Shown here: positions 6,532 through 34,003 of the stretch, piece by piece
How positions within the stretch are numbered: position 1 is the first letter of the stretch
Layout of the letters: every line of letters starts with the position of its first letter
Assembly (NCBI GenBank): GCA_028282005.1
Contig: JANQIV010000203.1
Span: 1 to 34,835, forward strand
DNA from: Melioribacteraceae bacterium
GTDB lineage: Bacteria; Bacteroidota; Ignavibacteria; Ignavibacteriales; Melioribacteraceae
Direction: 5' to 3'
DNA: 34,835 bases
Translations under genes and position numbers: made by a program
The notes under the pieces: model-generated
Told to the model about the DNA's origin: nothing
The model's database searches: none
The model's input: only the letters and a program-made list of their open reading frames with translations

Positions 6532-6601
6532 ATTAGTTCTCCTTGTTTTTTGATAGCTATATTTATTTATATAACCTCATTTATATTTTTATTAGCACCA
6601 A

Positions 6602-9559
6602 CTAGAATTGATACTTAATTCCAATATTTCCGTTCATTCCGTAGTATTCTTTATTTGTGATATATCCGGTACCGGAATTATGATTGCTCTCTGTAGTTTT
6701 TGTTATGTTCTTAAAGTTGCCGAAAACCTGCAATCCATCGATTGGTAGTTTTTGTGAAATTGCTAAATCAATTAAAGTGAAATCGTCAGTAAATCCTCGT
6801 AGTTCCGGTCTCCAGTCATTATCAGAAAAGATTTGCGATTTGAATTGAAGTGAGCCTCTAATTGAGAATCCTTCATAATCATATCCGAGGGTAATGTTCA
6901 GAATATGATCAGGCTGTGAAATTAGAGGTGCTGTGTATGATGAATCGGCATTACCGACAATTACTTCTCTATTACCAAATGGAGATTGAATAATTTCTTT
7001 TATTGGTACTGTTCGCGGATATTTTACTTCAGAGAAAGTGTAAGTGTAGTTGACACTGAAAACTATATCTTTTAGTAATCCGGGTAGATACCACAGGTTC
7101 GACTGCCATTCTACCTCGATTCCCCTTACATCAACTGTGTTTTCATTATTTACAAAATACCAAATCGGCTTGCCAACAAATCGACCTGGGTCTTGTCCGG
7201 TTAATTCTTCTCTTAAACCAAATTCTTCAATTGCCATTGAATCGCTGACAACTATTTTATTTTGTGAGAATATTAAATCATCAATTTGCTTAGTGAATAG
7301 CCCTACAGTAAACAAACCAATTTTATTGCCGTAGAATGAAAAGAATAAATCAACATTTTGTGATTTAGCAGGCTTCAAGTTTGGATTTCTATAATTTACT
7401 CCAAACAGGTACACATGCCATGATGGTAGAAATTCATAATAGCTAGGCCGGGAAAGTGTTTGAGTATAACTCGCACGAATATCAAACCAATCTGTCGGTT
7501 TGTACCGCACATGAATCATCGGTAAAAAGAAATCATTCTCTCTTGTTACAGTTGTATCGTAATGAACATATCCTTTACTTTCTGTAATCTGAAGATTAGC
7601 ATTACCTCTTACGCCGTTGTAATCTGTTTGTTTTTTCTCATATCTCAATCCAGGGATTAAAGTAAATTCTTCTCCGATATTTATAGTAGGCATAAAGTAC
7701 CAAGCCCAGTAATCTTCAGTACCGTCGTAATCATTCATTCTGCTTTCGTGAAAATTCGGTGTAAATCTTGTTGGCTGGGTTGATCCTTCGTATTCGACAC
7801 CTAAGTGATCCTGTAAATAATAGATTACTTCTTTACCTAATTCTAAATCAGGCATCCTTTCAATATCGTATTCGCCTTTCATAAAATCGCCAGGGTCGAA
7901 ACCACTATCTATAAACGGTAAGTAAGGGAATTTGCCTGTTGTGTAGTATTCATCCATCCAAGGATATTTTTCTATAAGTGCATTATTAACTTTTGCACTC
8001 GGATCTGAAAAGATGTTTAAGAATAGGGTGTTATAATCATACTTTCTATTTTTGTGTTTGAACTTACCGCCGGTCTTTATTTTAAGATTGATCAAATCTG
8101 AAATTCTATGTTCCCAATAAAGATCAAGAAAACCTGAGTACTCTTCTTCTCTGGTAATTTCATCTGCATCCGTAAAAGTATTAAGTAAAATTTCAGATAA
8201 ATTATTTTTCATGAATGAAGGGACATCTACCGGAGCTGCATCTGCATTGACCGGACCGGATAGCGGTGTTTGCTCAAGACCACCATAACTAAGTTCTTCC
8301 GGTGTTTTATCTTCGGAAAATGAAAAACTTACGCCGGACTCAAATTTTATATCCCCCAATTGTTGATTCCAGCGGAGTTGACTCATCAAAACCCAAGTAT
8401 TGCTTTCACCAAAAGTTATATCCTGTGTTCTTGATGTTGATCCACTGAATAAGCCGTTTGAATCTTCACTTCTATAAACTGTGTTGCGATTAATTCTGCT
8501 GAACATATTGCGGAATACGAGATCGGTACTGCCTTTCTTGTAGTCAAGCATTAGTGATCCGCCATATCGATCAAGTTCACGAGTCACATCATTGATGCTT
8601 AGAGAGTTGACTACAGTTTGCTGATCTTCAAGAAGATAATAATAGCTGGCACTTACTGTGTTTGAACTTCTATTTCTTCGCTCAACATCGGCATTAACTG
8701 ATATACCAAATGCATTATCAAATTCTCTTCTGCTTGCTTGGAATGCAAATCGGTAATCTTTGTATTCATCTCTTAGCCCGTTGTATCCACCTTCCAAAAT
8801 AATTTTGTAAGTAGGTTTTTCATATACAGCACCTTTTGATACAAAGTTTACCGTACCGCCTAACTGATCAGCTTCTTGATCTGCCATCGCAGATTTCGTA
8901 ACCTCTATTCCCCCCAACAAATAGGGTGAAATCATACTTAGGTCAGTACTCCGATCGTCACTATCTGTTGAAGCAAGGTCTACACCATCAATTTGAACTT
9001 TGTTATATTTGGGTGCTAACCCTCTTATTACTACTTTATTGCCTTCCCCTCCTTCGCGTTCAAGTGAAACACCGGGCAGTCGACCTACTGCTTCAGCTGC
9101 GTTTGCTTCAGGCAGTTCTTCAATTTTATCAGATGATACAACATTTTTAATTGCGTCTGAGGTAATTTGCTGGTTTATAGCAGCAAGTTGCCCTTCCCTT
9201 TGAGCAGTGATAGTGACTGTCTCACCCTCAATTGCTTCCGGTTTAAGAACAATATCAAGTTCCAAAGTTCTATCAGCTACTATTTCTACTTCTATATCCT
9301 GAGATTCAAAACCGAGATAAGTTACTCGAAGCACGTACTTTCCGGGTGGAATATTAATAATAGAATAATTCCCATCGAAGTCAGTTGAACCACCAAAGGC
9401 AGTATTAACAAGAATAATGTTTGTGCCCCATAATGCTTCGTTGTTATCTGCTTGTGATACTGTACCTTTAATTTTTCCTGTAGCAGCATTTATTACAGAA
9501 AAAGCTAAAAGCAATATTAGTAAAGAGGCTTTCATTATATTAAGTATGTTACTCCTCAT
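6602..9559 (-). CDS. TonB-dependent outer-membrane receptor with carboxypeptidase-regulatory-like domain
   Basis: A 985-residue outer-membrane transporter, probably for oligosaccharides. Residues 1-25 are a signal peptide. Residues 28-112 are a CarboxypepD_reg-like domain (KIKGTVSQADNNEALWGTNI, then TDFDGNYSI and PPGKYVLRVTYLGF). Residues of about 130-245 are the plug (DKIEELPEANAAEAVGRLPG, VVIRGL, VQIDGV), and the remainder is a 22-strand barrel ending in the usual terminal aromatic, KYQF. The overall style resembles the carbohydrate-linked TonB receptors first described in Xanthomonas and Caulobacter more than classical SusC, and no SusD neighbour exists. The chosen ATG follows AGGAGGAAAGGAGC; a second in-frame Met at residue 9 is possible. 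An operator palindrome lies about 72 bp upstream, so expression is probably controlled by the adjacent LacI-type regulator. Confidence 0.92.
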   Translation of the reverse strand: MRSNILNIMKASLLILLLAFSVINAATGKIKGTVSQADNNEALWGTNIILVNTAFGGSTDFDGNYSIINIPPGKYVLRVTYLGFESQDIEVEIVADRTLELDIVLKPEAIEGETVTITAQREGQLAAINQQITSDAIKNVVSSDKIEELPEANAAEAVGRLPGVSLEREGGEGNKVVIRGLAPKYNKVQIDGVDLASTDSDDRSTDLSMISPYLLGGIEVTKSAMADQEADQLGGTVNFVSKGAVYEKPTYKIILEGGYNGLRDEYKDYRFAFQASRREFDNAFGISVNADVERRNRSSNTVSASYYYLLEDQQTVVNSLSINDVTRELDRYGGSLMLDYKKGSTDLVFRNMFSRINRNTVYRSEDSNGLFSGSTSRTQDITFGESNTWVLMSQLRWNQQLGDIKFESGVSFSFSEDKTPEELSYGGLEQTPLSGPVNADAAPVDVPSFMKNNLSEILLNTFTDADEITREEEYSGFLDLYWEHRISDLINLKIKTGGKFKHKNRKYDYNTLFLNIFSDPSAKVNNALIEKYPWMDEYYTTGKFPYLPFIDSGFDPGDFMKGEYDIERMPDLELGKEVIYYLQDHLGVEYEGSTQPTRFTPNFHESRMNDYDGTEDYWAWYFMPTINIGEEFTLIPGLRYEKKQTDYNGVRGNANLQITESKGYVHYDTTVTRENDFFLPMIHVRYKPTDWFDIRASYTQTLSRPSYYEFLPSWHVYLFGVNYRNPNLKPAKSQNVDLFFSFYGNKIGLFTVGLFTKQIDDLIFSQNKIVVSDSMAIEEFGLREELTGQDPGRFVGKPIWYFVNNENTVDVRGIEVEWQSNLWYLPGLLKDIVFSVNYTYTFSEVKYPRTVPIKEIIQSPFGNREVIVGNADSSYTAPLISQPDHILNITLGYDYEGFSIRGSLQFKSQIFSDNDWRPELRGFTDDFTLIDLAISQKLPIDGLQVFGNFKNITKTTESNHNSGTGYITNKEYYGMNGNIGIKYQF

Positions 9560-9659: not shown

Positions 9660-9698
9660 TTTTCAATCGTAATTATTCAATTATTTACTAATTACTTT

Positions 9699-10706
9699 CT
9701 AAGTTGATTCTCTTATTATAAGCTTAGTCTTCAAAATTTTTCGTACAGGTTGCGAAATTTTGTTTCCAATTATGTTAAGCAGCGCTGTTGCTGCAGTTTT
9801 TCCGATTTCGTATATAGGCTGCCGGACAGTTGTAAGTGCCGGCCTGGAAAATTGACTAATTTCAATATTATCAAAACCAATTACTGCTATGTCATTTGGC
9901 ACTGATAAACCGTAAGTTTTTATTCTTTCAATTACACCAAGTGCCATATAATCATCAGAACAGAAAATTGCGGTCGGCCTTTCAACAAGATTAAGTAGTG
10001 ACTCTGATCTTTCGTAAGCAATTTCCTTTTCAAATTCTCCACAGATTACATATTCTTCTCTATATTCTAAACCAAATTTCTTTAATGAGTTTTTATAGCC
10101 TTTCAATCTATCTCTTGAGTTTGTTTCCTCCTTAGTACCTTCAACAAAAGCTATTTTCCTGTGTCCTTTTTCATATAAATGTTCCATTGCCAGTTCGGCA
10201 CCTTTAACATTTTCGGAATCAACATAATTATATCCATGTTCATTTTTTCTGTAGTTTACTAAAATGAATGGGAAACCGGATTCAGCTAATTCAGGTAAAT
10301 TCGGATCATTTATTTTTGCTTTAACTAAGATTATCCCGTCAAATAAATTACTTCTAGCGTAGTTGATATAACTTCCCTTTTCGGAACATGATTGATTTAC
10401 CGGCACAAGCATTATTCTGTAATCATTTTCTTGGGCTATGTCACTTACCCCACTTAAAACTTGAGCTATATAGTTATCAAGAAATAGTTGTTCTGTTTTA
10501 GGAATTAAAACTCCCAAATTCATAGACTTTCGAATAGACAAACTTCTTGCGATTAAATTTGGCTGATAATTCATTTCAGCCATAATACTTTTGATTTTTT
10601 TTGCTGTTTCTTCTGCTACCGGACCATTCCCGCTAAGTACTCTAGAAACCGTCATCCTGGATACACCTGCTTTGCTCGCGATATCTGAAATAGTTGTTTT
10701 ATTCAT
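9699..10706 (-). CDS. LacI-family transcriptional regulator of the sugar locus
   Basis: A 335-residue regulator of the usual LacI length. Residues 4-25 are the helix-turn-helix (TISDIASKAGVSRMTVSRVLSG), residues of about 48-58 the hinge helix (NLIARSLSIRKS), and about 62-335 a periplasmic-binding-protein-like sugar-sensing domain with landmarks such as SDDYMALGVIERIK and DIAVIGFDN. It is the last gene of the operon GH2-symporter-kinase-regulator, 8 bp after the kinase stop, so it should control its own synthesis. Twin palindromes of the form expected for this family (9632-9659 and 15545-15577) flank the operon, making it the probable local repressor. The effector sugar is unknown; it may be the product released by the GH2 enzyme. 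Confidence 0.93.
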   Translation of the reverse strand: MNKTTISDIASKAGVSRMTVSRVLSGNGPVAEETAKKIKSIMAEMNYQPNLIARSLSIRKSMNLGVLIPKTEQLFLDNYIAQVLSGVSDIAQENDYRIMLVPVNQSCSEKGSYINYARSNLFDGIILVKAKINDPNLPELAESGFPFILVNYRKNEHGYNYVDSENVKGAELAMEHLYEKGHRKIAFVEGTKEETNSRDRLKGYKNSLKKFGLEYREEYVICGEFEKEIAYERSESLLNLVERPTAIFCSDDYMALGVIERIKTYGLSVPNDIAVIGFDNIEISQFSRPALTTVRQPIYEIGKTAATALLNIIGNKISQPVRKILKTKLIIREST

Positions 10707-10714
10707 TTTTATAA

Positions 10715-11605
10715 TTAAGTTATTTCCAAATCCTTTGATGAAGCCGCAATACCACGATATTCAAAATATAACGCAGCTGCTCCTAAAATCGCAATTTGAG
10801 ATAAATTGCTCACTTCAATTTTTAAGTTACGAATAGAATTTGGATAAGGAAAACTTTTTAAAACATCATATAATGCATCTTTAAAGAAATCAAACGCTTT
10901 GCTTACGGACCCGCCTAAAATTATAACTTCAGGATCTACTGATAATACAATTGTTGCAATTGCATTGCCTAAATGATGCCCATATTCTCTAAATATTGCC
11001 AATGATTTTGGATCTGCATTTTGAGCTAACTTAAATAACTCATACCCACTTATATGATATTCTTTTTCAAAAAATTGGCCACTACAATAATATTCGTAAT
11101 TTTGCTCTTTATATTTAATAAGTCCAAATTCACCTGCACCACAGTTTGGTCCGGCAAATAGTTTATTATCAAAATATACACCTGCGCCAAGGCCTGTCCC
11201 GGAAATTAAGCCAACAATGTTTTCATAATTCTTTCCTTTGCCAAAATATTTTTCACCAACAACAAAACAATTTGCATCATTGTTAATATAAACGGGCAAC
11301 TGAAATCTGTTTTCCAAAATTTCTTTCAGTTTAACTTCCTTCCAAGATGGAATATTTTGTACATCATAAATAACACCATTCTCCACATCTACCAAACTCG
11401 GCACACCAATGCCAATACCTATAGAAGTATCATCAACAACTTTGGCTATAACATCTAATACTTCTTCAATGACTTTTTTTTCTGTTCCGTTGGATGAAAT
11501 TTTTTGTGAAGCCAAATCTTCAATATTATAATCGACCACTCTTCCGACCCTAATATTTGTTCCCCCTAAATCAACACCAATTACAGATTTCTTTTTCATA
11601 CTCAT
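10715..11605 (-). CDS. ROK-family sugar kinase lacking the zinc motif
   Basis: A 296-residue cytoplasmic kinase that should phosphorylate an imported hexose or aminosugar with ATP. Visible parts are the phosphate-binding loop GVDLGGTNIRVGRV (residues 9-22), the catalytic region YINNDANCFVVGE near residue 107 (Asp as base), the second phosphate motif LISGTGLGAGVYFD near 132, and the adenosine region VIILGGSVSKAFDF near 227. The usual ROK zinc site is missing: ExGH is EFGL, and the CxCGxxGCxE loop is replaced by YYCSGQFFE with a single Cys. I recall similar loops in other Bacteroidota ROK kinases, so this may be a subgroup rather than a defect. It lies 18 bp after the symporter gene and 8 bp before the regulator gene. 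Substrate not assigned: glucose, glucosamine, mannose and fructose are all possible. Confidence 0.88.
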   Translation of the reverse strand: MSMKKKSVIGVDLGGTNIRVGRVVDYNIEDLASQKISSNGTEKKVIEEVLDVIAKVVDDTSIGIGIGVPSLVDVENGVIYDVQNIPSWKEVKLKEILENRFQLPVYINNDANCFVVGEKYFGKGKNYENIVGLISGTGLGAGVYFDNKLFAGPNCGAGEFGLIKYKEQNYEYYCSGQFFEKEYHISGYELFKLAQNADPKSLAIFREYGHHLGNAIATIVLSVDPEVIILGGSVSKAFDFFKDALYDVLKSFPYPNSIRNLKIEVSNLSQIAILGAAALYFEYRGIAASSKDLEIT

Positions 11606-11623
11606 CCCACAATACTTACAGAA

Positions 11624-12877
11624 TTATATTTTATCTTCTTCAATTTTTGAAAAAATTGTTTCGTTGTTAATTAATGGTTTGGCCCAAAACCCAATACTGA
11701 GAATGTATACCAAAGTTACTGTTACAAATAGAATCCCAAATCTTAATCCGAGCAAGTCACCAATAGCTCCAACGATAATTTGAACAATTGCACCACCCAT
11801 AATACCAGAACATAAAATTCCGGAAAATGCTCCATGATGCTTATCCAACGAGTTTAAAGCTAAACTGAAAATAACAGACCACATTATGGAGATTGTTAGA
11901 CCCAATGTCGGTAAGCCATATAAAGCCATATCGCTGTTTCCAAACAGAGCTAAAAATAAAACAACAATCGAGGCGGAACTAAAGCCGATTAATATTTTTC
12001 TGCTATCCCAGATTTTTAGAATTACTAAACCGAGCAAACAACCTGCTAACATAAGCAGCCAAAAATAAGATACTGCCGAAGCCCCAGTAGTTTCAGGATC
12101 AAAACCGTGATATTGTTTTAAGAACAACGACATCCAATATGATATACCTTGTTCAGTACCAACGTACGCAAAAATCCCAAAGAAGAAAGCTATAACTGTT
12201 CTGTTCTTGAATAGCTCTTTGTTAACTGCCCAGCTGCCAATTTTTTCATCTTCTTTTAATTCAACGCTGGGGAAATTTGATAAAACAATTATAGCTACCA
12301 TCAGTAAGCAGATTAAAGCAAATACCCAATACAAAGAAATCCAGGTTAAATCTGCCGGCACAAGGTTTTTTAAGGTAGAAATTATAAAATCATCACTGCC
12401 GGCTTTCATGTTTACAACAATGTAGCTGTAAAGCAATGGAGCCGCATACGATGCACCACCAAAAAACAATTGAGCAATAACGGAATTAAACGCAAAATTT
12501 GATTCGCCTCCGGCTACCCTTAATAAAGGATTTATAGCTACTTGTAACATCGCCATCCCGGTTCCGATCATGAATAAAGAAAACATGTAAATCAAAAAGG
12601 TCGGAATGATTGCAAAAAGAAATGCTCCGGCCGCTGCCAAAATAAAAGCCGCAGCCATAATTTTTTTCTCTTTGTACTTTTCTACTAATAAACCTGCCGG
12701 AATGGACATTACACCATAAGCAATAAAGAACGCAAACGGTAAAAAGCCAGCCATTGTATTGGATAAATTAAATCCTTCTTTAATGGCGGGGCCTAAAGGA
12801 CCTAAAATATTCGTTAAGAATGATATTACAAAAAATGTTAAAACTACTAACCCAACGATAAAATAATTTCTTTTCAT
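11624..12877 (-). CDS. FHS-family sugar:H+ symporter (MFS, glucose/galactose/fucose type)
   Basis: A 417-residue inner-membrane transporter with about 12 hydrophobic segments. The loop motif LLVEKYKEKKIM after helix 2 is the MFS signature region. AINPLLRVAGGE near residue 115 is characteristic of the fucose/glucose/galactose permease (FHS) family of GluP and FucP type. It should import a free monosaccharide with protons, matching the adjacent ROK kinase. It begins 12 bp after the GH2 stop and is followed 18 bp later by the kinase gene, so the operon carries out final hydrolysis, import and phosphorylation. The exact sugar cannot be read from the sequence. Confidence 0.88.
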   Translation of the reverse strand: MKRNYFIVGLVVLTFFVISFLTNILGPLGPAIKEGFNLSNTMAGFLPFAFFIAYGVMSIPAGLLVEKYKEKKIMAAAFILAAAGAFLFAIIPTFLIYMFSLFMIGTGMAMLQVAINPLLRVAGGESNFAFNSVIAQLFFGGASYAAPLLYSYIVVNMKAGSDDFIISTLKNLVPADLTWISLYWVFALICLLMVAIIVLSNFPSVELKEDEKIGSWAVNKELFKNRTVIAFFFGIFAYVGTEQGISYWMSLFLKQYHGFDPETTGASAVSYFWLLMLAGCLLGLVILKIWDSRKILIGFSSASIVVLFLALFGNSDMALYGLPTLGLTISIMWSVIFSLALNSLDKHHGAFSGILCSGIMGGAIVQIIVGAIGDLLGLRFGILFVTVTLVYILSIGFWAKPLINNETIFSKIEEDKI

Positions 12878-22943: not shown

Positions 22944-23561
22944 TTAGATCCTTAATTCAACGATGACTTCATTTCTTCTTAAAAACCATGGCCAAAACGG
23001 AGGATTATATCTCGAGAAAATTGGATAGCCGATTATTTCTAAATCTGCTTTTTCTATTTCTTCAAGTAATATTTTTTCGTTTTCCCTATAATTATCTTCA
23101 CTCCAAGTTCCAGAGTATTTTCTCACGGCAACTACTTTCGTTTGAATTTCTCTAATTACAACTCTTTCATCTTTTGGAGTTGGAATATTATCCAATGTAA
23201 ATCTGGAAGGCATTACAAAACTAATTACATAATTGCCACCACTATTTAATTTTGGTTTCATTGATACCGGCCTAGTCATTTCAATTTTTTGTCCGGCATT
23301 ACTTTGATTTACAGGAATTGTCATTTCAATCTTCTGCTGTGAAGTGTTCTCTCCGGAAATGTAATCGAACAATAATTTAAAAGCTTTGTTTCCAGCTTCA
23401 TCAAAAGTTTCTTCAACTTCTGTTTCTGCAACTAAATATGAATCATATTCACGAATTTCAAATTCATCATATTCTTTGATTACTTTATATTTAGGTTCTT
23501 CAATTGCCATAACATTACTACTGAGCAATAAAGATATTGTGATTAAAAATAATCTTTTCAT
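22944..23561 (-). CDS. SOUL-family heme-binding-like protein, exported
   Basis: 205 residues from the ATG at 23561. I prefer this start to an upstream in-frame ATG at 23645 because it gives a proper signal peptide (MKRLFLITISLLLSSNVMA), has AAAGGAA 5 bp before it, and avoids overlap with the preceding gene. The mature protein opens with PKYKVIKEYDEFEIREYDSY, the SOUL/HBP signature, and contains KIEMTIPVNQ, KIEMTRPVSM, VAVRKYSGTWSEDNYRENE and FWPWFLRRNEVIVEL. SOUL proteins bind tetrapyrroles or act as small-molecule carriers, and the bacterial role is unclear. It follows the NTF2-like gene by 65 bp and may share its transcript. Confidence 0.88.
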   Translation of the reverse strand: MKRLFLITISLLLSSNVMAIEEPKYKVIKEYDEFEIREYDSYLVAETEVEETFDEAGNKAFKLLFDYISGENTSQQKIEMTIPVNQSNAGQKIEMTRPVSMKPKLNSGGNYVISFVMPSRFTLDNIPTPKDERVVIREIQTKVVAVRKYSGTWSEDNYRENEKILLEEIEKADLEIIGYPIFSRYNPPFWPWFLRRNEVIVELRI

Positions 23562-23626
23562 TTGTTTTCCTTTTATTTTCAATTGAAAACAACCAAAGAA
23601 AAGATCAAGTTCAAGATCAATTAAGA

Positions 23627-24118
23627 TTATTTTTCCGGGAGACAAGTTTCATGGACGTGCAACCACAACAATCCATTTGGTGTGTCTGATTTTGTTTTAA
23701 AAAGCGCAGTGCTTAATCGGCCTTTTGATTCACCATCAATTTCTTGCCATTCTTCGTAAGTTGAGATGTACAACTCTTTTTCGATTTGTCTAACTTCGAT
23801 ATTTTCAATCCAAATGCGAAACGGTGAAGCTTCATTTACTCTAAATCCATAAGCCTGACTTAATTTTTGCTCTAATTCATTTTTAACAGTTCTAATTCCT
23901 GAAGGAGAAATGATTTCAAAATCGTCAGCCATTACTTCACTAAATCTTGCGAACTCTTTTTCTGTGTTATCGATTTCAGCATTAAACCAATCTTGGAAAA
24001 ATTGGTGGAGGTCTATTATTTCGTGTTCAATATTTTTTTTCATTTTATCAGTACTTTGGATTTCTCGAGAATAAATAATTGTAGAGAACAAAATAAAATA
24101 TAAAAAAATTGTTTTCAT
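23627..24118 (-). CDS. Exported NTF2-like (SnoaL/DUF4440-like) protein
   Basis: 163 residues with a signal peptide (1-17). The body has the NTF2-like layout: an N-terminal helix (IIDLHQFFQDWFNAEI), MADDFEIISPSGIRTVKNE, and then a curved sheet (SPFRIWIENIEVRQIEKELY, STYEEWQE, GRLSTALF, LLWLHVHET). Such domains form cone-shaped pockets and occur in isomerases, binding proteins and enzyme subunits, so the reaction cannot be named. The gene starts 47 bp after the BNR gene stop. The only ribosome-site-like GGAG lies inside a hairpin (24129-24152) about 14 bp before the ATG. Probably co-transcribed with the SOUL-family gene downstream. Confidence 0.65.
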   Translation of the reverse strand: MKTIFLYFILFSTIIYSREIQSTDKMKKNIEHEIIDLHQFFQDWFNAEIDNTEKEFARFSEVMADDFEIISPSGIRTVKNELEQKLSQAYGFRVNEASPFRIWIENIEVRQIEKELYISTYEEWQEIDGESKGRLSTALFKTKSDTPNGLLWLHVHETCLPEK

Positions 24119-24165: not shown

Positions 24166-27100
24166 TTAGTTTTTTCTCCAAGTCGGGAATCTACCCGGGG
24201 TAAACGGAGCGCCAGCTTCTTCCAATTCAGATTCAATTGATTTAATTGCAGTATCAATTGATTTTAATAGCTCAAGAACACCATCAAATTTTGAAGCGGC
24301 ATCATCGTAAGATTTAATTAATGTTGTCGTCGGTGCTGAAGTTGTGGTCCAAAGAGCATAGGTAATGATATCAATTCTATCTTTAACTGCAGTTGGAACA
24401 GCACCTTCAAACCTGCTCTTAAGTCCGTCACCATTTAGCTTTCTGTTAAGTTCATCAAGATTTAATTTTGCTTGATTGATTTTATTATAAACTTCATTTG
24501 CCAGTTCCGGTGATTCAAAAACAGCTTTCTTTAAATAAGTCAGTTTCTTAACAAGTTCACTTCTGTATTGATCTGCACCAACAACTGCTCTTGTTAATTC
24601 AGCGACTTTTCTATTAAATGTATTCAATGCTTGCTTATCTTTTGCCGGAATAGAAACATGATTTAATAACCTGCAAGAGAATTCTTGTGGAGGCACTAAT
24701 TCAGTGAATTTGCCTTCATCAAATTTTGAAAGAGAAACTTTATATTTTCCAGGAACAACCATGTAACCAATATCAGGATCAATCCAAGGAATAGAATAAT
24801 CAAATGGTGTATGCGAGATTTCTGAGAACGGGCTGTATCTGAAATCCCAAACAACTCTGTTAACACCTTTTGATGCATCGGTTTTAATTTTCTTAACTAC
24901 ATTACCCTGCTCATCTGTGATCGTGAATAGTAAGTACTGGCCTATCTCTTCGGCTTCTTTTCTTAGCTGATCATAGCTCGGATGTTTTACATCCTTACCT
25001 TCTTTTTGCAGTTCTTTTTCTTTTTCTCTTCTTTTTTCTTTAAGCGATTTAAATCCATCTTTCAAATAATATGTAAATACCGCACCAACTTCCGGATTTG
25101 GGGCACTGTACATATTTACACCTTGTGCACCAACACCGCGGTAACCAAGCGGATTTGACTGAACAAACATCAGCCCTTCTTCTATAGGGAAGATGTGCGC
25201 AACTTTTGCGATTGTTTCTTGAGATAGGTGGCGTAACGGGGAATAGTCGTCCAATATGTAAACACCTCTACCAAAAGTTGAAACTACCAAATCATTTTCA
25301 TCACGCTGAATTTCCATATCCATTACTGCATGAGTAGGCATTCCGCTTTTAATTTTTAGCCATTCTTTACCACCGTTATTTGAAAAATAAACTCCAAATT
25401 GTGTTCCGACAAACAAAAGGTTTTTATCAATATGATCTTCCTGTACTGTGTAAGTACTTCCTCTCTCAGGTAGATTGTTATTTATTAAAGTCCAGTTTTT
25501 ACCACCATCCGTAGTTTTAAATAAATATGGTTTTTTATCACCGTCAACAAAATTATGGCAAGCAGCATAAGCAACTAGTTTGTCATGGAATGATGCAACA
25601 ATGTGATGAACCCGAGCATATTTTGGTAATCCTTTTGAATTACTTTTGTTCCATGTTGCACCGCCATCTGTAGAATAATGAAGTAAACCATCCCCTGTTC
25701 CGACAAATAAAACATTTTCATCTAATGGAGATTCTGCAATTGCAGTTAAATTTGCCATTGAGCTTTTGCGCGCAAGCTCATCAATACTCCAGCTTCTTCC
25801 CATCAACATCATCATTTCTTGCGGAACACCTCTTGTTAAATCCGGGCTTACTTCAATCCAAGTACTTCCCTGATCATCTGTGCGTAATAGTTTTTGCGCA
25901 CCGAAGTACAATCTTTTATTATCGTGACGGGAAATTAATAATGGTGCATCCCAGTCAAATCTGTAAGCAGTGTCAGCAAATTCATATGGACGGATATAAT
26001 AATTTTCGCCACTTCTTCTATCGTATCTAACAAGTCCGCCGTTTTGTGATTGTGCGTAAACAATATTCGGATCTTTCCAATCAACTTGTGTTTCAAAGCC
26101 GTCACCACCGTTTGTGAAAACCCAATCTCTGTTTGTAATTCCGGCTGAACTTACTGTGCGAGAAGGTCCGTATAAACTGTTATTATCTTGAGTACCGAAA
26201 TAAACATTATAAAATGGTTTTTCATTATCAGTACTTACTTTATAAATTTCTGTGATCGGGATATTACCGGTAAATCCCCAATGTTTACCTTTGTCGTAAG
26301 AAACATAAACGCCGCCGTCACAACCGTTAATTAAATGATTATTATCATTAGGATTAATCCACAAGAAGTGGTCATCAACGTGTTTATTTTTATGGCCGGC
26401 ATTTTTCCATGTCTTGCCGCCGTCTTCAGTAATTTTCAAAAACACATCCATGCTGTAAACTCTGTCGGCAATAACAGGATCAGCAAAAATTTTCTGGAAA
26501 TAAAATTTGTAAGCTGATGCGTACGAACTCATTTTAGTCCAGCTTGCGCCTCGGTCCGTACTTCTGTACGTACCCTGGTCACTTCCGGTGGCTTCAACTA
26601 AAGCATAAAGCACATCTGGATTAGCCGGTGAAACATCCATCCCGATTCTTCCAACATTACTTGTTGGGAAACCATTTGCTAATTTCTCCCAGTTTTGCCC
26701 ACCATCAGTAGTTTTGTAAATTCCGCTCTCATCACCGCCATAAATTCCAGTGTATAATTTTCTCATTCTTTGATGAGCTACTGCATAAAGTGTTTTTGAA
26801 TTTCGAGGGTCCATGTGCACTTGATAAAAACCGGTATACTTATTTACAAATAAAACTTTTTTCCATGTCTTGCCGCCATCGGTAGTCTTATAAATTCCTC
26901 TTTCATCATTTCCTTTTCTCAATGAACCATATGACGAAGCATAAACAATATTGGAATTAGTCGGATCGATTACTATTCCGGTTATGTGCTCGGATTTTTT
27001 TAATCCCATATTTTTCCAGGATTTGCCACCATCTTCACTTTTATAAATTCCGTCACCGTAAATAACATTGTTCTGATTATTATTTTCTCCGGTTCCTACC

Positions 27101-27435
27101 CAAACAACATTCGGATTGGTCGGATCGATTTCAACATAGCCTATTGCATAAGGCTCAACGCTGTCAAAAATTGGTTTGAATGTGGTGCCGTTATTTGTAG
27201 TTTTCCAGAGTGAACCGTGACCCGAACCAACATAGTACTCACTAAAATTAAAAGGATTTACAGCAATAGATGAAATACGTCCTCCGGTAATTGCAGGGCC
27301 AATACTTCTAAATTTTAATCCGTGCAGTGAAACATCTTTTAATGAATCAGGCTCGGATTTTTCATCATTATTACTTGCAGATAAAAATGTAAAGAATATT
27401 AATAGACTAAATATAGTCGCAATTAGTTTTTTCAT
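24166..27435 (-). CDS. BNR/sortilin-like beta-propeller protein, exported
   Basis: A 1089-residue secreted protein with a signal peptide (1-20, ending SAS). Residues of about 30-750 contain about eleven Asp-box (BNR) turns of the form S/T-x-D-G-G-x-x-W, for example KSEDGGKSW, KTTDGGKTW, KTTDGGQNW, RSTDRGASW, ITEDGGKTW and YSTDGGATW, which predicts two beta-propellers of the VPS10/sortilin type. A FnIII-like region (about 840-930, VVKKIKTDASKGVNRVVWDF) and a helical tail (about 960-1089) follow. Database names such as glycosyl hydrolase for this family rest on the Asp boxes, not on proven activity; a binding or scaffold role is as likely. It ends in TWRKN, without a T9SS domain. It has its own 198-bp upstream region and leads the NTF2-like and SOUL-family genes. 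Confidence 0.82.
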   Translation of the reverse strand: MKKLIATIFSLLIFFTFLSASNNDEKSEPDSLKDVSLHGLKFRSIGPAITGGRISSIAVNPFNFSEYYVGSGHGSLWKTTNNGTTFKPIFDSVEPYAIGYVEIDPTNPNVVWVGTGENNNQNNVIYGDGIYKSEDGGKSWKNMGLKKSEHITGIVIDPTNSNIVYASSYGSLRKGNDERGIYKTTDGGKTWKKVLFVNKYTGFYQVHMDPRNSKTLYAVAHQRMRKLYTGIYGGDESGIYKTTDGGQNWEKLANGFPTSNVGRIGMDVSPANPDVLYALVEATGSDQGTYRSTDRGASWTKMSSYASAYKFYFQKIFADPVIADRVYSMDVFLKITEDGGKTWKNAGHKNKHVDDHFLWINPNDNNHLINGCDGGVYVSYDKGKHWGFTGNIPITEIYKVSTDNEKPFYNVYFGTQDNNSLYGPSRTVSSAGITNRDWVFTNGGDGFETQVDWKDPNIVYAQSQNGGLVRYDRRSGENYYIRPYEFADTAYRFDWDAPLLISRHDNKRLYFGAQKLLRTDDQGSTWIEVSPDLTRGVPQEMMMLMGRSWSIDELARKSSMANLTAIAESPLDENVLFVGTGDGLLHYSTDGGATWNKSNSKGLPKYARVHHIVASFHDKLVAYAACHNFVDGDKKPYLFKTTDGGKNWTLINNNLPERGSTYTVQEDHIDKNLLFVGTQFGVYFSNNGGKEWLKIKSGMPTHAVMDMEIQRDENDLVVSTFGRGVYILDDYSPLRHLSQETIAKVAHIFPIEEGLMFVQSNPLGYRGVGAQGVNMYSAPNPEVGAVFTYYLKDGFKSLKEKRREKEKELQKEGKDVKHPSYDQLRKEAEEIGQYLLFTITDEQGNVVKKIKTDASKGVNRVVWDFRYSPFSEISHTPFDYSIPWIDPDIGYMVVPGKYKVSLSKFDEGKFTELVPPQEFSCRLLNHVSIPAKDKQALNTFNRKVAELTRAVVGADQYRSELVKKLTYLKKAVFESPELANEVYNKINQAKLNLDELNRKLNGDGLKSRFEGAVPTAVKDRIDIITYALWTTTSAPTTTLIKSYDDAASKFDGVLELLKSIDTAIKSIESELEEAGAPFTPGRFPTWRKN

Positions 27436-27633: not shown

Positions 27634-28917
27634 CTATTTTAATAACAGAATTTTTTTCGTTAATATTTCATCATTTGTTTGTAAAGTAAGAACATATACA
27701 CCTCCACTTACTTCAAAATTATTATCATTTAAACCATTCCAAGAAAATACTTTTGTTCCAGTTGATAAATAGGAGTTATGAAGAATTTTTACTTTTGCGC
27801 CTAAAACATCATAAATTACTAAACTAATATGACCTTCTTTCTTAATGTTAGCAGTAATCTTGGTTTCAGAATTAAAAGGATTTGGATAATTCTGGAATAG
27901 CCGCATTTCTGTAAGAATAGAATTCTGTTCATTTCTAACCGAAGTGACATTCTGAAAAGTCTCCCAATGTTTAATTAGAGACTTACTGGCATGCAGATCT
28001 GCAAATCCAAAAGTATGAACTGCATCGGGTGAAAGAACAAAATTTGAGAACGTATTAAAAATACCTTTGGCAGCCATAGTATCTAATAATTGTTTATTTC
28101 TTCCAAAGTTTGCCACAGTATCTCTAGGGCCGGTATGAATATGAAATCTTATAGATTTAATGCTATCTAATTTAGAATTATCGGCTTCCGAAAGAATGTT
28201 TACTGAACTGTTCTGAAGCATATAATCAATATTTCTTGGGATTCCAAACAAAGGGCCAAAAATTAGATCAAGATTTGTATTTAGCCAAACCGGATCATCC
28301 GGGGAATCACCTTCTATTTTTGGATCATCCAAATTATACCACATGAAGGTACCATCATAACTTCCTACCGAACTGAAAGTATTTGGATTTCTTAAACTCA
28401 AAAGAACTGCAGTATAACCTCCCAAGGAAAAGCCATCAATTCCTCTATTTTCTTTATTTGGAATTGTTCTATAATTAGAATCAATATAAGGGATAAGATC
28501 ATGAATAAGGTAATCTTCAAATCTACCTGTTCCAATTCCTGGACTAATAGTTAAATTAGGGCTAAACATATTAACCAATCCTGCGATGTTACCGTTATCA
28601 CTACCGGTATTTGGGCCAACCAAAATCATTTCAGAAACATAATTTCCCTCAATAAGAGAATCGGCAACATCTTTTAATGTACTCCCACTACGGCCGGAAA
28701 GCCCGGGATTAAACCATTCCGATTCATGCAGCCTTAAAAAATACACTACAGAATAATGCCGATTACTTTCATCATATCCTCGGGGGAGGTAAATATTAAA
28801 TGATTTGGAAGTATTAAGAATTGTTGATTCAAATGATCTCAATTCAACTCGACTGGAAGATTGGGCTAAAATATTGGCAGTTACAATGAAAATAATGATA
28901 CAATATTTCGCCAACAT
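27634..28917 (-). CDS. T9SS-exported alpha/beta-hydrolase esterase (esterase D/Fes-like)
   Basis: A 427-residue secreted esterase. Residues 1-18 are a signal peptide. Residues of about 25-325 form the hydrolase domain: LPRGYDESNRHYSVVYFL, DLIPYIDSNYRTI, then the nucleophile elbow GFSLGGY with Ser164, SYDGTFMWYN after it, and HTFGFADLH near 315 supplying a probable catalytic His. The last 80 residues are a type A T9SS sorting domain with QNYPNPFNSETK, ending KILLLK, so the enzyme works outside the cell. The family includes acetyl xylan and feruloyl esterases, but the substrate is not fixed by the sequence. It starts 35 bp after the beta-lactamase-like gene with a strong AAGGAG site, so the two secreted hydrolases are probably made together. 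Confidence 0.82.
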   Translation of the reverse strand: MLAKYCIIIFIVTANILAQSSSRVELRSFESTILNTSKSFNIYLPRGYDESNRHYSVVYFLRLHESEWFNPGLSGRSGSTLKDVADSLIEGNYVSEMILVGPNTGSDNGNIAGLVNMFSPNLTISPGIGTGRFEDYLIHDLIPYIDSNYRTIPNKENRGIDGFSLGGYTAVLLSLRNPNTFSSVGSYDGTFMWYNLDDPKIEGDSPDDPVWLNTNLDLIFGPLFGIPRNIDYMLQNSSVNILSEADNSKLDSIKSIRFHIHTGPRDTVANFGRNKQLLDTMAAKGIFNTFSNFVLSPDAVHTFGFADLHASKSLIKHWETFQNVTSVRNEQNSILTEMRLFQNYPNPFNSETKITANIKKEGHISLVIYDVLGAKVKILHNSYLSTGTKVFSWNGLNDNNFEVSGGVYVLTLQTNDEILTKKILLLK

Positions 28918-28952: not shown

Positions 28953-30386
28953 TTACTTTACTAATAAGATTTTTTGTGAAGCAATTTTTTCACCTGCTCT
29001 TAACCGATATATATACGTTCCGCTTGTAAGTCCGTAAGCATTCCAATTAATTCTGCTTGTACCTTTTTCAAAGACTTCATCAACAATTGTTGTTACTTTT
29101 TTTCCAAGAATATCATAAACTTCAATAACAACATGAGATTGAACTGGTAATACAAAACTAATGACTGTACCCTGATTAAACGGATTAGGGTAGTTTTGAA
29201 GAAGTTTAAATTCATCTGCGATTTGTTCACTTTCTTCTTCAGATACAGACGTAATATGAAAGCTATTAATTTCTTTTAGCAAAAGAGGTGCTATAGTATA
29301 AACACTTTGAAAATCATCTTGATTGACTAAAACACAAATTGAAATACCCGATTCTTTAGAGTAAGCAAGAATTGATCTAAATCCAGTAAGCATTCCAGTG
29401 TGTCCCCAAAACTCTTCACCTTCAAAAGTAAATCTCATAGTTCCTGCACTGTATCCAGTCCAAGATGTATTGTAATTTATTGATGTAAAATTTTTTATTT
29501 CATTAATTGAGGCTGAATTTATTACTTCTCCGCCATAAAGAGCTTCACCCCATCTAACAATGTCTTTAGCTGTAGAAACAATACTACCTGCAGTCCATGA
29601 CATTGAAAACATAGCTGTGCCTGTTCTATCACTAAAATCTTCAACTTGTTCGTCATTATTTCTGTCAGACCAATTGTGTACTAAGTCTCCAACAATACTT
29701 TCTTCAGAAGGAAAAAAAGTACCATCAAGATTTAGTGGATCAAAAAAATATTCCCGGTATAAAGAAGAGACTGATGAACCAGTCGCTTCTCTTATGATCA
29801 TTCCCAATAAAATGTAATTGGTATTTGAATAATCAAATTCTGCTCCCGGAGTAAACAATTCCGGATGTAGAAAGTTTTGCAATACTTCTTCAGGCTGCCA
29901 TCTTCTTTCGGGATCAGTCCATAAAGCAAACCAAGTTGCGGCATTATCAGTATAGTTATAAATTCCACTTTTATGAATCAATAGCTGACGAATTGTAATA
30001 TTCGGATTAATATGTTCAAAGTCAGGAAGCCATTGATGTAATGAATCATTAAGATTAATAGTCGATTCTTCAGCAAGTTTTAAAATTAAAGCTGCAGTAA
30101 ATGTCTTTGTAATACTGGCAACTGCAAATCGAGTTTCAATATTAATTGTATCTGGTACAGTTGGGTCAGAATAACCACTTGTTCCAGACCACAATCCCAT
30201 TCCGGGTACAATTACAGCAGCTTGGATTCCCATAAGATTTTGGTTAACTAACTCTTGATCAATAATCTGATTGAGTCTATTTCCTAAATCTTTATTGAAA
30301 TCATTTGAGTTATTTTGAGCATCTTTTCGATCAGAAAAAAAAACTATTAAAATAGCTGCTAAAAAAATATATAATTTATATATCAT
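28953..30386 (-). CDS. T9SS-exported class C beta-lactamase-like serine hydrolase
   Basis: A 477-residue secreted protein. Residues of about 35-375 form the penicillin-binding/beta-lactamase fold. The nucleophile motif is SITK (Ser91, Lys94), the second motif is YSN (Tyr186, Asn188), and the third is HTG (329-331) in place of KTG, as in many esterases and D-aminopeptidases of this group. The last 85 residues are a type A T9SS sorting domain with QNYPNPFNQGT, ending KILLVK. The protein should act outside the outer membrane, where peptidoglycan is not exposed. This favours an esterase, a lipase or an enzyme that attacks other cells' walls over antibiotic resistance; the substrate is unknown. 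The N-terminal export signal is a little unusual (FFSDRKDAQ after the hydrophobic stretch). Confidence 0.82.
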   Translation of the reverse strand: MIYKLYIFLAAILIVFFSDRKDAQNNSNDFNKDLGNRLNQIIDQELVNQNLMGIQAAVIVPGMGLWSGTSGYSDPTVPDTINIETRFAVASITKTFTAALILKLAEESTINLNDSLHQWLPDFEHINPNITIRQLLIHKSGIYNYTDNAATWFALWTDPERRWQPEEVLQNFLHPELFTPGAEFDYSNTNYILLGMIIREATGSSVSSLYREYFFDPLNLDGTFFPSEESIVGDLVHNWSDRNNDEQVEDFSDRTGTAMFSMSWTAGSIVSTAKDIVRWGEALYGGEVINSASINEIKNFTSINYNTSWTGYSAGTMRFTFEGEEFWGHTGMLTGFRSILAYSKESGISICVLVNQDDFQSVYTIAPLLLKEINSFHITSVSEEESEQIADEFKLLQNYPNPFNQGTVISFVLPVQSHVVIEVYDILGKKVTTIVDEVFEKGTSRINWNAYGLTSGTYIYRLRAGEKIASQKILLVK

Positions 30387-30433: not shown

Positions 30434-32050
30434 TCAAAATTTATTTCCAGAAAACAATTTTTCAGCTTCCATCCAATAAATGTCCCAATTACCATTTACA
30501 TTGCTTGCAAAAAAGAAATACTTCCTATCAGGAGAAATATGTGGAAACCTTACATCTCCCTCAAAATTCATTTTTGAATAAATACTTATCGGCTCTTGCC
30601 AATTCCCATTTTCGCTTTTGTAGCTAATGTAAATTCTGCCTTCACTTTTTTCTGTTGGTTTATTTGAAGCAAACAGAATATAACTCTCATCAGGAGCTAT
30701 ATACGGTTCATCTTCATAAGATTCTGTGTTAATTACTTTTCCAAGATTTTCCGGTTGAGCGTATTTTCCATTTTCATATTTGGAAATGTACAGATCAGCA
30801 GACCCAATGCCACCTTCATAAAATCCCATAAAATATAAATTACCGTTGTCTGCAATTGTTAATCCGTACTCATGGCCTTTATCAAAGCCAACATAAACCG
30901 GAGCAGACCACCCTTCTCCTTGTCTTTCAACATACCAAATGTTCATTTGATCACCGGCACCTTTTCCATCTATGGATAAGTCGCTTACAAAGAATAATTT
31001 TTGGCCATCGGCTGAAAGAGTCGGATACATATAAGTTCCGCCAATTCTACAAAACGGAAGTATTTGAGGAACGGTCCACTTTCCGTTTTTTTCTTTCGTG
31101 AAATAAATAAAATCACCACGGCTTGTGTAAACTTCCGACCAATAAACTTCTCTACCGTCTTTTGAAAAGATTGGAGCACTATGGTCATAATGAACAGTTG
31201 AGATAATTCCTTTTGCAAAAATTTCCGGTTTATCTCCAGGTTTATTTTGTGCCAAGTAATTACCGCTTAAATCAACGATTTTTTTTGATCCTTTTTTGCT
31301 ACCGTTTTTTTCGAGCAGTTTAACTATTTCACTGTGCCCAAATTCAGCGGCATTATCAATAGCGGCTTTTCCATTTAAAGAATAGTAATTAAGATCTGCT
31401 TTGTTTTCAATTAAGATTTCTACAACATTCTGCTTTCCTTCCATTGCTGCAAGTATTATTGGCGTTTGTCCGTAACGATTTTTTAAATCTATTTTGAATC
31501 CGTCATTAACCAATTTTTGCACAGTCTTTGAAAGTCCGCCGAAAGCAGCTGAATGAAGAAATGTACCATCATTATTATTTAATGTAGATAGATAAGCTTC
31601 ATTTGAAATTAATTGTTCAACAATTTCTTTGTGACCTATTTGTGCGGCTGAATGCAGAAAATATTTCCCATCATCCCCTTTTGCAGGAAACCTTACACCG
31701 GATTCAATATATGCTGAAAGAGCTTCCTTTTTCTGTTCTCTTAAACCTGGGAAACGGAGAGCGAAATTCATCAAAAATTTTAAAGGTGATCTTCCTCTAT
31801 TATCTTTAATATGTGAATCAGCACCTTTTTCAATAAGTAATTTTATTATTTCAGGATTATCGGTAAAGCGGAGAGGTGTTCTTCCGTTAGCATCTTTTGA
31901 GTTTACTGATTCAGGGAATTCCTCAATAATGCTTTTTATTTGTTCTATATTACCTTGGCCTACAGCCTCATGAATATCTTGGGCAGTTAATTTAGAAATG
32001 AAGAAAAAAAAGATTAGAAAAATATATATGTTTGATTTTGTTTTGTTCAC
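30434..32050 (-). CDS. Exported ankyrin-repeat / PD40 beta-propeller fusion
   Basis: 538 residues from a GTG start at 32050. An ATG at 32074 is in frame, but it lies inside the predicted -7 box, whereas the GTG has GGGGGA 4 bp before it and gives a cleaner signal peptide (hydrophobic FLIFFFFISKL, cleavage near TAQ). Residues of about 25-255 are ankyrin repeats (ANGRTPLRFTDNPEIIKLLI, NGKAAIDNAAEFGHSEIVKL). Residues of about 280-530 are WD40-like PD40/TolB-type blades (FSKDGREVYWSEVY, LSADGQKLFFVSDL, IAPDESYILFASN, ISPDRKYFFFASN). Both halves are protein- or ligand-binding modules and I see no enzyme site. No sorting domain is present, so it is probably periplasmic. It precedes the two T9SS-exported hydrolases by 47 bp and may lead that operon. 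Confidence 0.8.
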   Translation of the reverse strand: MNKTKSNIYIFLIFFFFISKLTAQDIHEAVGQGNIEQIKSIIEEFPESVNSKDANGRTPLRFTDNPEIIKLLIEKGADSHIKDNRGRSPLKFLMNFALRFPGLREQKKEALSAYIESGVRFPAKGDDGKYFLHSAAQIGHKEIVEQLISNEAYLSTLNNNDGTFLHSAAFGGLSKTVQKLVNDGFKIDLKNRYGQTPIILAAMEGKQNVVEILIENKADLNYYSLNGKAAIDNAAEFGHSEIVKLLEKNGSKKGSKKIVDLSGNYLAQNKPGDKPEIFAKGIISTVHYDHSAPIFSKDGREVYWSEVYTSRGDFIYFTKEKNGKWTVPQILPFCRIGGTYMYPTLSADGQKLFFVSDLSIDGKGAGDQMNIWYVERQGEGWSAPVYVGFDKGHEYGLTIADNGNLYFMGFYEGGIGSADLYISKYENGKYAQPENLGKVINTESYEDEPYIAPDESYILFASNKPTEKSEGRIYISYKSENGNWQEPISIYSKMNFEGDVRFPHISPDRKYFFFASNVNGNWDIYWMEAEKLFSGNKF

Positions 32051-32071
32051 AATTCCCCCATGAATGTCAAA

Positions 32072-32079
32072 CAAATATA
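32072..32079 (-). promoter_or_regulatory. Predicted -7 promoter box of the ankyrin/PD40 gene
   Basis: The minus strand reads TATATTTG (32079-32072), matching the Bacteroidota TAnnTTTG element, 22 bp before the GTG start at 32050. I see no good TTG partner at the usual distance. The box overlaps the alternative ATG at 32074, which argues against that start. Confidence 0.4.
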
Positions 32080-32173: not shown

Positions 32174-34003
32174 CTATAATCCATTATTACCAATTAAGTA
32201 TCCTGAACCTGCGGTTTCATTTTCAGAAGTTTTAAACTGCTCAAGTAATTTCGTTAACCTTTCCGTTAAACGGTTCAAGTCTTCAGATGCCTGTGCAATT
32301 TGTTGTATACCCATAGAAGACTCATTTGTAACTGTTGATATAGATTCAATATTTTTACTTATTTCTTCAATTGTTGCTGATTGCTGTTCGGATGCTGTTG
32401 CCACTTGAAGAATTTCTGCTGAAACTTTTGTTGAACCGTCAAGAATTACATTTAACGAGTTCCTTAAATCATAGGAAGTCTCTTTACCTTCCTTCACGGA
32501 TATGTTTGCTTCTTCCATAGATTGATTAGCTTCTTGAGCTTCCGCCTGAATAGCTTTTATAGTTTCCGCTATTTCTTTGGTGGCCTTCGTTGTTCTTTCG
32601 GCAAGTTTTCTTACTTCGTCTGCTACTACGGCAAAACCTCTGCCCTGTTCCCCCGCCCGTGCAGCTTCAATTGCAGCATTTAAGGCAAGAAGATTTGTCT
32701 GGTCAGCGATATCGTTAATTACCTGAGTAACCTCACCAATCTGATCAGTTTTTCCGGCAAGTGATGCTATAATTTTACTTGTTCCTTCAGCAGATTGCGA
32801 GATTTTTTCAATCCCTTCTATGTTTCTTTTAATTTTTTCATTTCCTACTTGAGTTTCATTACTTGCTTTTTGTGATAATTCTGAAGCCGAGTTTGCGTTT
32901 GATGTAGTCTGCATTATTGTTTGAGACATTTGCTCAACAGAAGCAACTATTTCTGTTGATTGCGTTATTTGCTCCTGGGCACCTGCTGCCAATTCTTCGC
33001 TGCTAGAGGATATTTGAGCACTTGCGCTTGCAGTTGCGTGTGCCGCTTCATAAACTTTTAGAATCATATCCTTAATATTTTTCACTGCTAAGTTAAAACC
33101 ACTAAACAACCTGCCAATGTCGTCATTGCTATTGCTCTTTAATTCAACGGTCAAATCTCCTTTGGCAAACTGTTCCATTCCAAACAAAATTTCACTTACC
33201 TTCTCCGATAGATATTTCTTTTGATTTTCTGATTCTTCAACAGCCTCTTTCACTTTATTTTCAATATTGGCTTTTTCTTCAAGTAAAGCTTCTCTCGTAT
33301 TTTTGATTCTTGATGTCATATTGTTAAAACCGTCAAACAGCTCTCCAAACTCATCGTCCTTATTTTTATGCAATTTAACACCCAGATCACCCGCGGTTAT
33401 CTTTTTAACACTCTCTTGCATTTCATTAATTGGTGAGAGAAAATCCCTTTTTATCCCAATAGTTGCAAATACTCCCAAAATTACAGTTACGATTAAGAAT
33501 ATAGTCTGTATTAATTTTAATGTGGAGACTTTGTTAACAGAAGCTTCTTCAAAAAGCCCAACAGCTTCATTCATCGTTTTCAATAATTTTATGTTATTAT
33601 TCAACACGTAGTCTAAATTAGCAGAAGAGGAAACATTTTCTATTTTTTCTTTAAAGGGTTTCCAAAGTTTTTTTACATCATTTAATTTTGATAAAATGAT
33701 TTCGTCTTCGGTCTTAGGCAGGTTCAATTTATGATCACCGTCAATTAATCCATTTAAAGTTTTGTCAAACAGATCAACAGTCTTTTTCAAATCATTTAAA
33801 CTGCCGTTTCCATTTGAGTAGGCTAGTGCTTCTTTAGTCATTTTTTGGGTAAGCATTCTTTGCTTCCCTGCAAGATTAATTACTACACCATCACTTGATT
33901 GCGAGTTAACAGTTATAAAAGTGATTGATATCAATAGAATAATTACAGCTATAAAAGATCCGACTAAAATTGCTGATTTTGTTTTAATCGATTGGAATGC
34001 CAT
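32174..34003 (-). CDS. Methyl-accepting chemotaxis protein with PilJ-like sensor and two HAMP domains
   Basis: A 609-residue inner-membrane chemoreceptor. Transmembrane helix 1 spans about 11-32. The periplasmic domain (about 33-160) contains [18 protein letters not shown] near 42-59, the PilJ/NIT-like four-helix motif. Transmembrane helix 2 is at about 163-183. A HAMP domain follows (about 185-238, [19 protein letters not shown]) and then, unusually, a second HAMP-like unit (about 275-325, [20 protein letters not shown]). The signalling domain (about 335-595) has the conserved hairpin [20 protein letters not shown] with [20 protein letters not shown] near 433-472. It relays signals to CheA/CheW for motility, type IV pilus gliding or another output; none of those partners is in this window. 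A GAGGG-type ribosome site precedes the ATG. Confidence 0.92.

Follow-up and report, generated by a model that had tools for sequence, protein, structure and literature searches.

The window, by which we mean the whole stretch of 34,835 nucleotides from a Melioribacteraceae bacterium, carries on its minus strand a gene for a protein that joins ankyrin repeats to a PD40 beta-propeller. Two genes for secreted hydrolases follow directly downstream and a chemotaxis receptor gene lies upstream. The features of this region, with the evidence in brackets, are as follows.

30434..32050, minus strand: ankyrin-repeat and PD40 propeller protein, very probably exported (ORF, start inspection, Pfam)
31979..32050, minus strand: predicted signal peptide, residues ~1–24 (hydropathy and reading by eye)
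31286..31978, minus strand: ankyrin solenoid, about seven repeats by eye, residues ~25–255 (Pfam Ank_2/Ank_4/Ank, model, Foldseek)
31172..31285, minus strand: linker and family motif LSGNYLAQNKPGDKPEIFAKGIIST, residues ~256–293 (model, comparison by eye)
30437..31171, minus strand: PD40 beta-propeller, five repeat motifs, residues ~294–538 (Pfam, motifs, Foldseek)
28953..30386, minus strand: exported beta-lactamase-fold serine hydrolase (PF00144) with T9SS tail, next gene downstream (ORFs, Pfam)
27634..28917, minus strand: exported esterase (PF00756) with T9SS tail, third gene (ORFs, Pfam)
32174..34003, minus strand: methyl-accepting chemotaxis protein with PilJ sensor, upstream gene (ORF, Pfam)

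The region 30434–32074 is a single uninterrupted reading frame of the minus strand, listed as 546 aa from a TTG codon. The likelier start is the GTG at 32050, which has GGGGGA shortly 5' of it and yields a protein of 538 aa. The initial annotation had placed the feature at 30434–32079; its first coordinate is correct, but its end lies 5 bases past the longest listed start and 29 past the likely one. From the GTG, the N-terminus reads VNKTKSNIYIFLIFFFFISKLTAQ, with a basic beginning followed by a hydrophobic core as judged by eye and by hydropathy, and inspection by eye found no lipobox cysteine in it. The protein is very probably exported by means of this predicted signal peptide, in agreement with the export signal proposed in that annotation. 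Both domains were recognised by Pfam with scores far over their gathering cut-offs, namely 102.8 bits against 27.3 for Ank_2 (PF12796 and kin) and 69.8 bits against 20.9 for PD40 (PF07676), and both domain calls are thus well beyond chance. Together with the intact frame, these scores bear out the claim that the two domains are fused. The PD40-type motifs start near residues 296, 346, 400, 452 and 506 (538-aa numbering), and the linker motif appears by eye in many relatives as YLGQxPPGxxPExFAPGIVST. Pfam detected no hydrolase domain within the chain, and a Pfam and NCBIfam scan found no T9SS sorting domain (Por_Secre_tail) on it. Assignment to a defence system was rejected, as PADLOC returned two models only, both on the ankyrin half. 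The genome of the window contains no second Ank_2 gene at E 1e-6 and two further, stand-alone propeller relatives, one of them truncated at a contig end.

The AlphaFold2 model of the full protein, built from a two-row alignment, had a mean pLDDT of 70.8 and a pTM of 0.53, at which the relative placement of the ankyrin and propeller parts is unreliable. The ankyrin part is formed by helix pairs, with ten-residue blocks mostly at pLDDT 67–94 (one at 54, the last at 44), and the linker (model residues 254–290) falls below 50. The propeller was of moderate confidence within the full-length model and weak when modelled alone (pLDDT 60.8). Structure prediction, as suggested in the initial annotation, therefore gave a well-modelled ankyrin half, but not a dependable propeller or two-part arrangement. 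Foldseek matched the ankyrin half to DARPins and ankyrins. For the propeller, with the low-confidence model as query, the best match was TolB (1c5k, E 6.3e-7), closely followed by lectins, S9 peptidases and sialidases, the bacterial lectins and sialidases having E-values near that of TolB. Comparison with solved structures by sequence placed ankyrins and DARPins on top among the best 60 of 417 matches; the propeller alone matched TolB only (E 0.082).

The three genes are closely spaced on the same strand, with 47 bases between the fusion gene and the PF00144 gene and 35 bases between the latter and the esterase gene. The PF00144 product contains SITK, YSN and HTG (by eye), which we take to be the motifs of a beta-lactamase-fold serine hydrolase. 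A T9SS sorting domain scoring above its cut-off is present on each hydrolase, which confirms the two secreted hydrolases downstream. The chemotaxis receptor gene ends 123 bases before the GTG start. Pattern scans gave 28 promoter-like sites against 30.5 expected by chance and six terminator-like sites against 3.2 expected (sd 1.9), none of the latter within either gap of the three-gene run. Since both gaps are free of terminator-like sites and promoter-like sites are not above chance, co-transcription of the fusion with the two hydrolase genes is plausible from the sequence. Between 27300 and 34835, no non-coding RNA was found at Rfam gathering scores. Further along the minus strand, positions 24166–27435 encode an exported Sortilin/BNR propeller protein of 1089 aa, and a similar-looking protein lies near propeller genes in another locus (L062:2-2413). 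The SOUL heme-binding gene at 22944–24118, on the same strand, overlaps by 19 bases with a gene carrying an S6PP_C domain.

Searches for the same architecture covered the window's own genome with 57 relatives (58 genomes), a class set of 391, phylum sets of 395 and 394, the class of genome G565 (244) and the family of genome G544 (92); these sets overlap, and genome labels reach G743. At least four ankyrin–PD40 proteins were identified from Pfam domains, with export signals read by eye: that of the window and those of G009 (contig C5), G565 (C209) and G544 (C1). This number is a lower bound because the class and both phylum searches scored at most three candidates per genome and the G565-class search at most five, with E-value limits between 1e-25 and 1e-40. 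The fusion occurs in 2 of the 58 genomes of the first set. Its distribution is patchy, since G458 and G505, of the same genus as G544, gave no match at 1e-40. The G009 protein is present in JAHISV010000012.1, the sole match in contig scans of genomes for named relatives. A match was found in 53 plasmid records, in no case with 80% coverage of the protein.

The window protein has a full-length relative in G565, with 111 of 254 aligned positions identical in the ankyrin half (44%) and 160 of 281 in the propeller (57%), which shows that the domain pair has been kept. These two proteins alone share a nine-residue insertion in one ankyrin repeat, absent from the G009 and G544 fusions. The N-terminus of the G565 protein contains a lipobox-like LSC (by eye), and this protein would thus be membrane-anchored. 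The initial annotation had allowed that homologues might reveal two separate genes joined here by a sequencing error. The window is indeed one contig of a 271-contig draft assembly, but such an error is effectively ruled out and we regard it as extremely improbable: the frame has no stops, a full-length relative exists and the architecture recurs in three other assemblies. Comparison of the surroundings of the four fusions, also proposed earlier, was carried out but revealed no close neighbour common to all. In G009 the fusion gene is followed downstream by one for a hybrid sensor kinase and in G544 by ApbE; the G565 fusion is followed first by an outer-membrane barrel and then by a metallo-beta-lactamase (MBL) protein at 62.5 bits.

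A rapidly built maximum-likelihood tree of 85 propellers, to be read with caution given its short search and the long branches of L065_5474, L030 and L099, grouped the window and G565 propellers with support 98. Their sister, with support 95, is a propeller of G244 (locus L060) that carries an alpha/beta hydrolase (Abhydrolase_1) where the pair carries ankyrin repeats; it scores 17.0 bits for PD40, below the cut-off of 20.9, and aligns with the window propeller at 43%. The G009 and G544 propellers are placed elsewhere. On well-supported branches, the placement of the four ankyrin fusions requires a minimum of three gains or losses; their grouping as one clade was rejected (p-AU 0.0018). Judging from this tree, ankyrin repeats and propeller seem to have been joined more than once; separate gains are the simpler reading because the ankyrin fusion is so rare a trait.

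Propellers of this PD40 family mostly stand alone, and in our first survey 55 of 81 had no extension of more than 110 aa at either end. The domains of extended members were scanned in two sets of ten proteins each. Besides the L060 protein, the scans revealed one propeller joined to a PF00144 hydrolase (L099) and one joined to a metallo-beta-lactamase-fold domain (L030), each of the three fusions being a single example. In L102:5761-7056 and L103:5054-6385, MORN_2 repeats precede the propeller, so that a repeat module occupies the place of the ankyrin. In one scanned set, six of the ten proteins had a T9SS sorting domain at the C-terminal end, some with Ig-like or Fib_succ_major domains. Across both sets, the N-terminal parts of the L007, L035, L061 and L108 proteins had no Pfam match. 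Locus L065:2-8204 (G298 C8) contains six propeller genes, one cut at the end of the stretch, interleaved with two S41-peptidase genes. In locus L031, DUF5916 proteins are encoded beside propellers at 5050-7203 and 9697-12174, the second with a CBM9 match.

The initial annotation considered an exported ankyrin protein unusual because bacterial ankyrin repeats are usually cytoplasmic. The window protein does look exported, but the premise is weaker than claimed. Among the 58 genomes, 12 contain 14 Ank_2 genes at E 1e-10; by eye, eight of the products have a signal peptide or lipobox, five have neither and one (G032) has no readable start. One exported ankyrin protein, at L031:7311-9047 (G009 C4), lies between stand-alone propeller genes, 2.5 kb from one of them, and ends in an MBL-like domain scoring 25.0 and 23.8 bits, slightly below the cut-offs of 27 and 24. 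In L152 (G565 C237), an SDR-like domain and ankyrin repeats are fused behind an apparent signal sequence (by eye). A periplasmic ankyrin-like protein, AnkB of Pseudomonas aeruginosa, has moreover been in print since 2000; according to the excerpted text of PMC10294975, it is needed for full activity of the catalase KatB and was proposed to keep this enzyme in working form. The window protein, whose export is predicted, would resemble AnkB in being an ankyrin protein of the periplasm tied to an enzyme. It differs in that this excerpt mentions no propeller for AnkB, and in that the partner of AnkB is a catalase, a family for which Pfam found no member among the eight nearby window proteins scanned.

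PG1058, which we take to be PorE, is a known envelope protein of similar general plan. It combines TPR repeats with a PF07676 propeller predicted to have five blades, and the T9SS depends on it (PMC5053529, excerpt). In both proteins helical repeats precede a PD40-type propeller, with five repeat motifs in the case of the window protein; as far as the excerpt describes PG1058, its repeats are TPR rather than ankyrin, and its CRD and OmpA-like domains are missing here according to Pfam. The NCBIfam PorE model (NF052230) matched the propeller half at E 5.7e-19, with 67.8 bits against a curated cut-off of 600. TolB likewise consists of PD40 repeats and was the top Foldseek match, but its propeller has six blades (PMC5053529, excerpt) as opposed to five repeat motifs, and its model TIGR02800 scored 21.2 bits where the cut-off is 343.15. 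S9 prolyl oligopeptidases and isopeptidases pair a PD40-type propeller with a serine hydrolase (PMC11878206, excerpt), and S9 chains were among the Foldseek matches of the window propeller. In the window, however, the hydrolases are encoded separately and come from other families; in the fused L060 and L099 proteins the hydrolase lies N-terminal to the propeller and is not assigned to S9 by Pfam. Stand-alone exported proteins named "PD40 domain-containing" belong to the same propeller family but lack the ankyrin part. No description of the ankyrin–PD40 architecture was found in the literature searched (titles and beginnings of abstracts, with subscription papers mostly outside). As exported ankyrins are common and both AnkB and PG1058 are known, the combination is a variation upon known themes: the fusion is genuine, and its occurrence patchy and recurrent, but its parts and general idea are already familiar.

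We also asked whether hydrolase genes are enriched beside the propellers. The main count drew on 64 loci, the window among them, of which 63 contained a total of 84 propellers; genes of the window were excluded, and close same-strand neighbours were compared with other genes encoding 150 aa or more. PF00144-like genes, one of five families tried, made up 5 of 103 close neighbours versus 3 of 350 other genes (Fisher p 0.017). The remaining families gave p 0.13 (Esterase), 0.40 (alpha/beta hydrolase), 0.32 (S41) and 0.23 (MBL), the S41 and MBL counts including their own model's seed. Two of the three "other" PF00144-like genes came from L131, the propeller of which had been dropped by the gene-picking rule; by eye, its frame spans 5047-5991 and a hydrolase starts at 4997. 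With L131 added by eye, the count became 6 of 104 versus 2 of 349 (p 0.0024), or p 0.008 when two loci of one genus were counted once, figures that come from a post hoc correction made once the result was known and from related rows. With L131 again read by eye, a PF00144-like gene is neither fused to nor found beside a propeller in 56 of the 64 loci.

The first count followed another gene-picking rule and compared 97 neighbours of at least 150 aa (94 without the window; the survey list has 109 with shorter genes) with 97 random control genes. It left L100, L101 and L131 without a propeller, of which the main count recovered the first two but not L131. Of the 94 neighbours, 5 had a PF00144 match in Pfam; the family is missing from the control list, which is capped at the 25 commonest families. 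Esterase domains occurred in 3 of 94 neighbours versus 3 of 97 controls, S9 and S41 in 3 of 94 neighbours each, and DUF5916 in 4 of 94. The counts point to a modest enrichment of PF00144 near this propeller family, and the link of the family to hydrolases is suggestive, not firm.

Based on these results, we hypothesise, with a probability of roughly 0.4, that the ankyrin–PD40 protein serves in the envelope as an adaptor for secreted hydrolases or for their ligand. The signal peptide would take the protein across the inner membrane, leaving it soluble in the periplasm, where the five-repeat propeller would bind one partner and the ankyrin solenoid another. The likeliest clients would be the secreted hydrolases of the adjoining downstream genes, or the ligand on which they act, and the adaptor may hold the enzyme, present it or protect it, either ahead of T9SS export or in the course of it. 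This proposal draws on the intact fusion, its recurrence and apparent repeated origin, the hydrolase-fused relatives of the propeller, the L031 ankyrin protein with its MBL-like domain, the PF00144 neighbours and the two T9SS hydrolases downstream; the partner itself we infer from gene order, the single-example fusions and the modest enrichment. Counting against it, the four fusions share no close neighbour, most loci lack a PF00144-like gene, the enrichment is small and the propeller model is weak. The periplasmic binding platform put forward in the initial annotation is a fair guess as a putative role.

The main rival is a ligand-binding envelope protein unrelated to hydrolases, in which the propeller would bind a sugar or peptide, the ankyrin part would relay this to an envelope protein and the gene order would be coincidental. 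The predominance of propellers without extensions, the rarity of PF00144 neighbours and the lack of a neighbour common to the four fusions would all fit such a binder, as would the lectin and sialidase propellers ranked near TolB and the DUF5916 neighbours, one with its CBM9 match. We consider it possible if doubtful, given that propeller–hydrolase fusions, each a single example, and the modest neighbour enrichment speak for a hydrolase connection. The protein could instead be a secretion-side scaffold in the manner of PG1058, organising components or cargo of the T9SS at the outer membrane. The shared repeat-plus-propeller plan, the PorE match and the T9SS cargo encoded by both downstream genes agree with this, but the CRD and OmpA-like domains are absent, the PorE score is far from its cut-off and a fusion found in 2 of 58 genomes is unlike a core secretion part, making such a role unlikely. 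Domain shuffling without a common job, with promiscuous exported repeat modules and a fusion that adds a generic contact surface, would account for the many exported ankyrins of the lineage, for ankyrin repeats joined to MBL-like and, by eye, SDR-like domains, and for the same propeller joined to MORN_2 repeats or, along with T9SS tails, to Fib_succ_major or Ig-like domains. We view it as rather unlikely because the window and G565 proteins retain both halves and the nine-residue insertion across families.

The adaptor reading may extend to the exported PD40 propellers of the family in general. Solenoids of ankyrin or MORN type and hydrolases would then be interchangeable N-terminal partners, the solenoid would recruit a separate hydrolase in trans and the ankyrin version would have been made several times for that purpose; we hold this broader version to be improbable. 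Were the adaptor reading correct for the window protein, it would suggest a function for many exported PD40 proteins now named by domain alone and provide a natural case of ankyrin repeats as binding proteins outside the cytoplasm. The partner question is directly testable because ankyrin repeats have been exchanged for a hydrolase on closely related propellers. One stand-alone propeller was also found on an Agarilytica plasmid, where it is annotated as "PD40 domain-containing".
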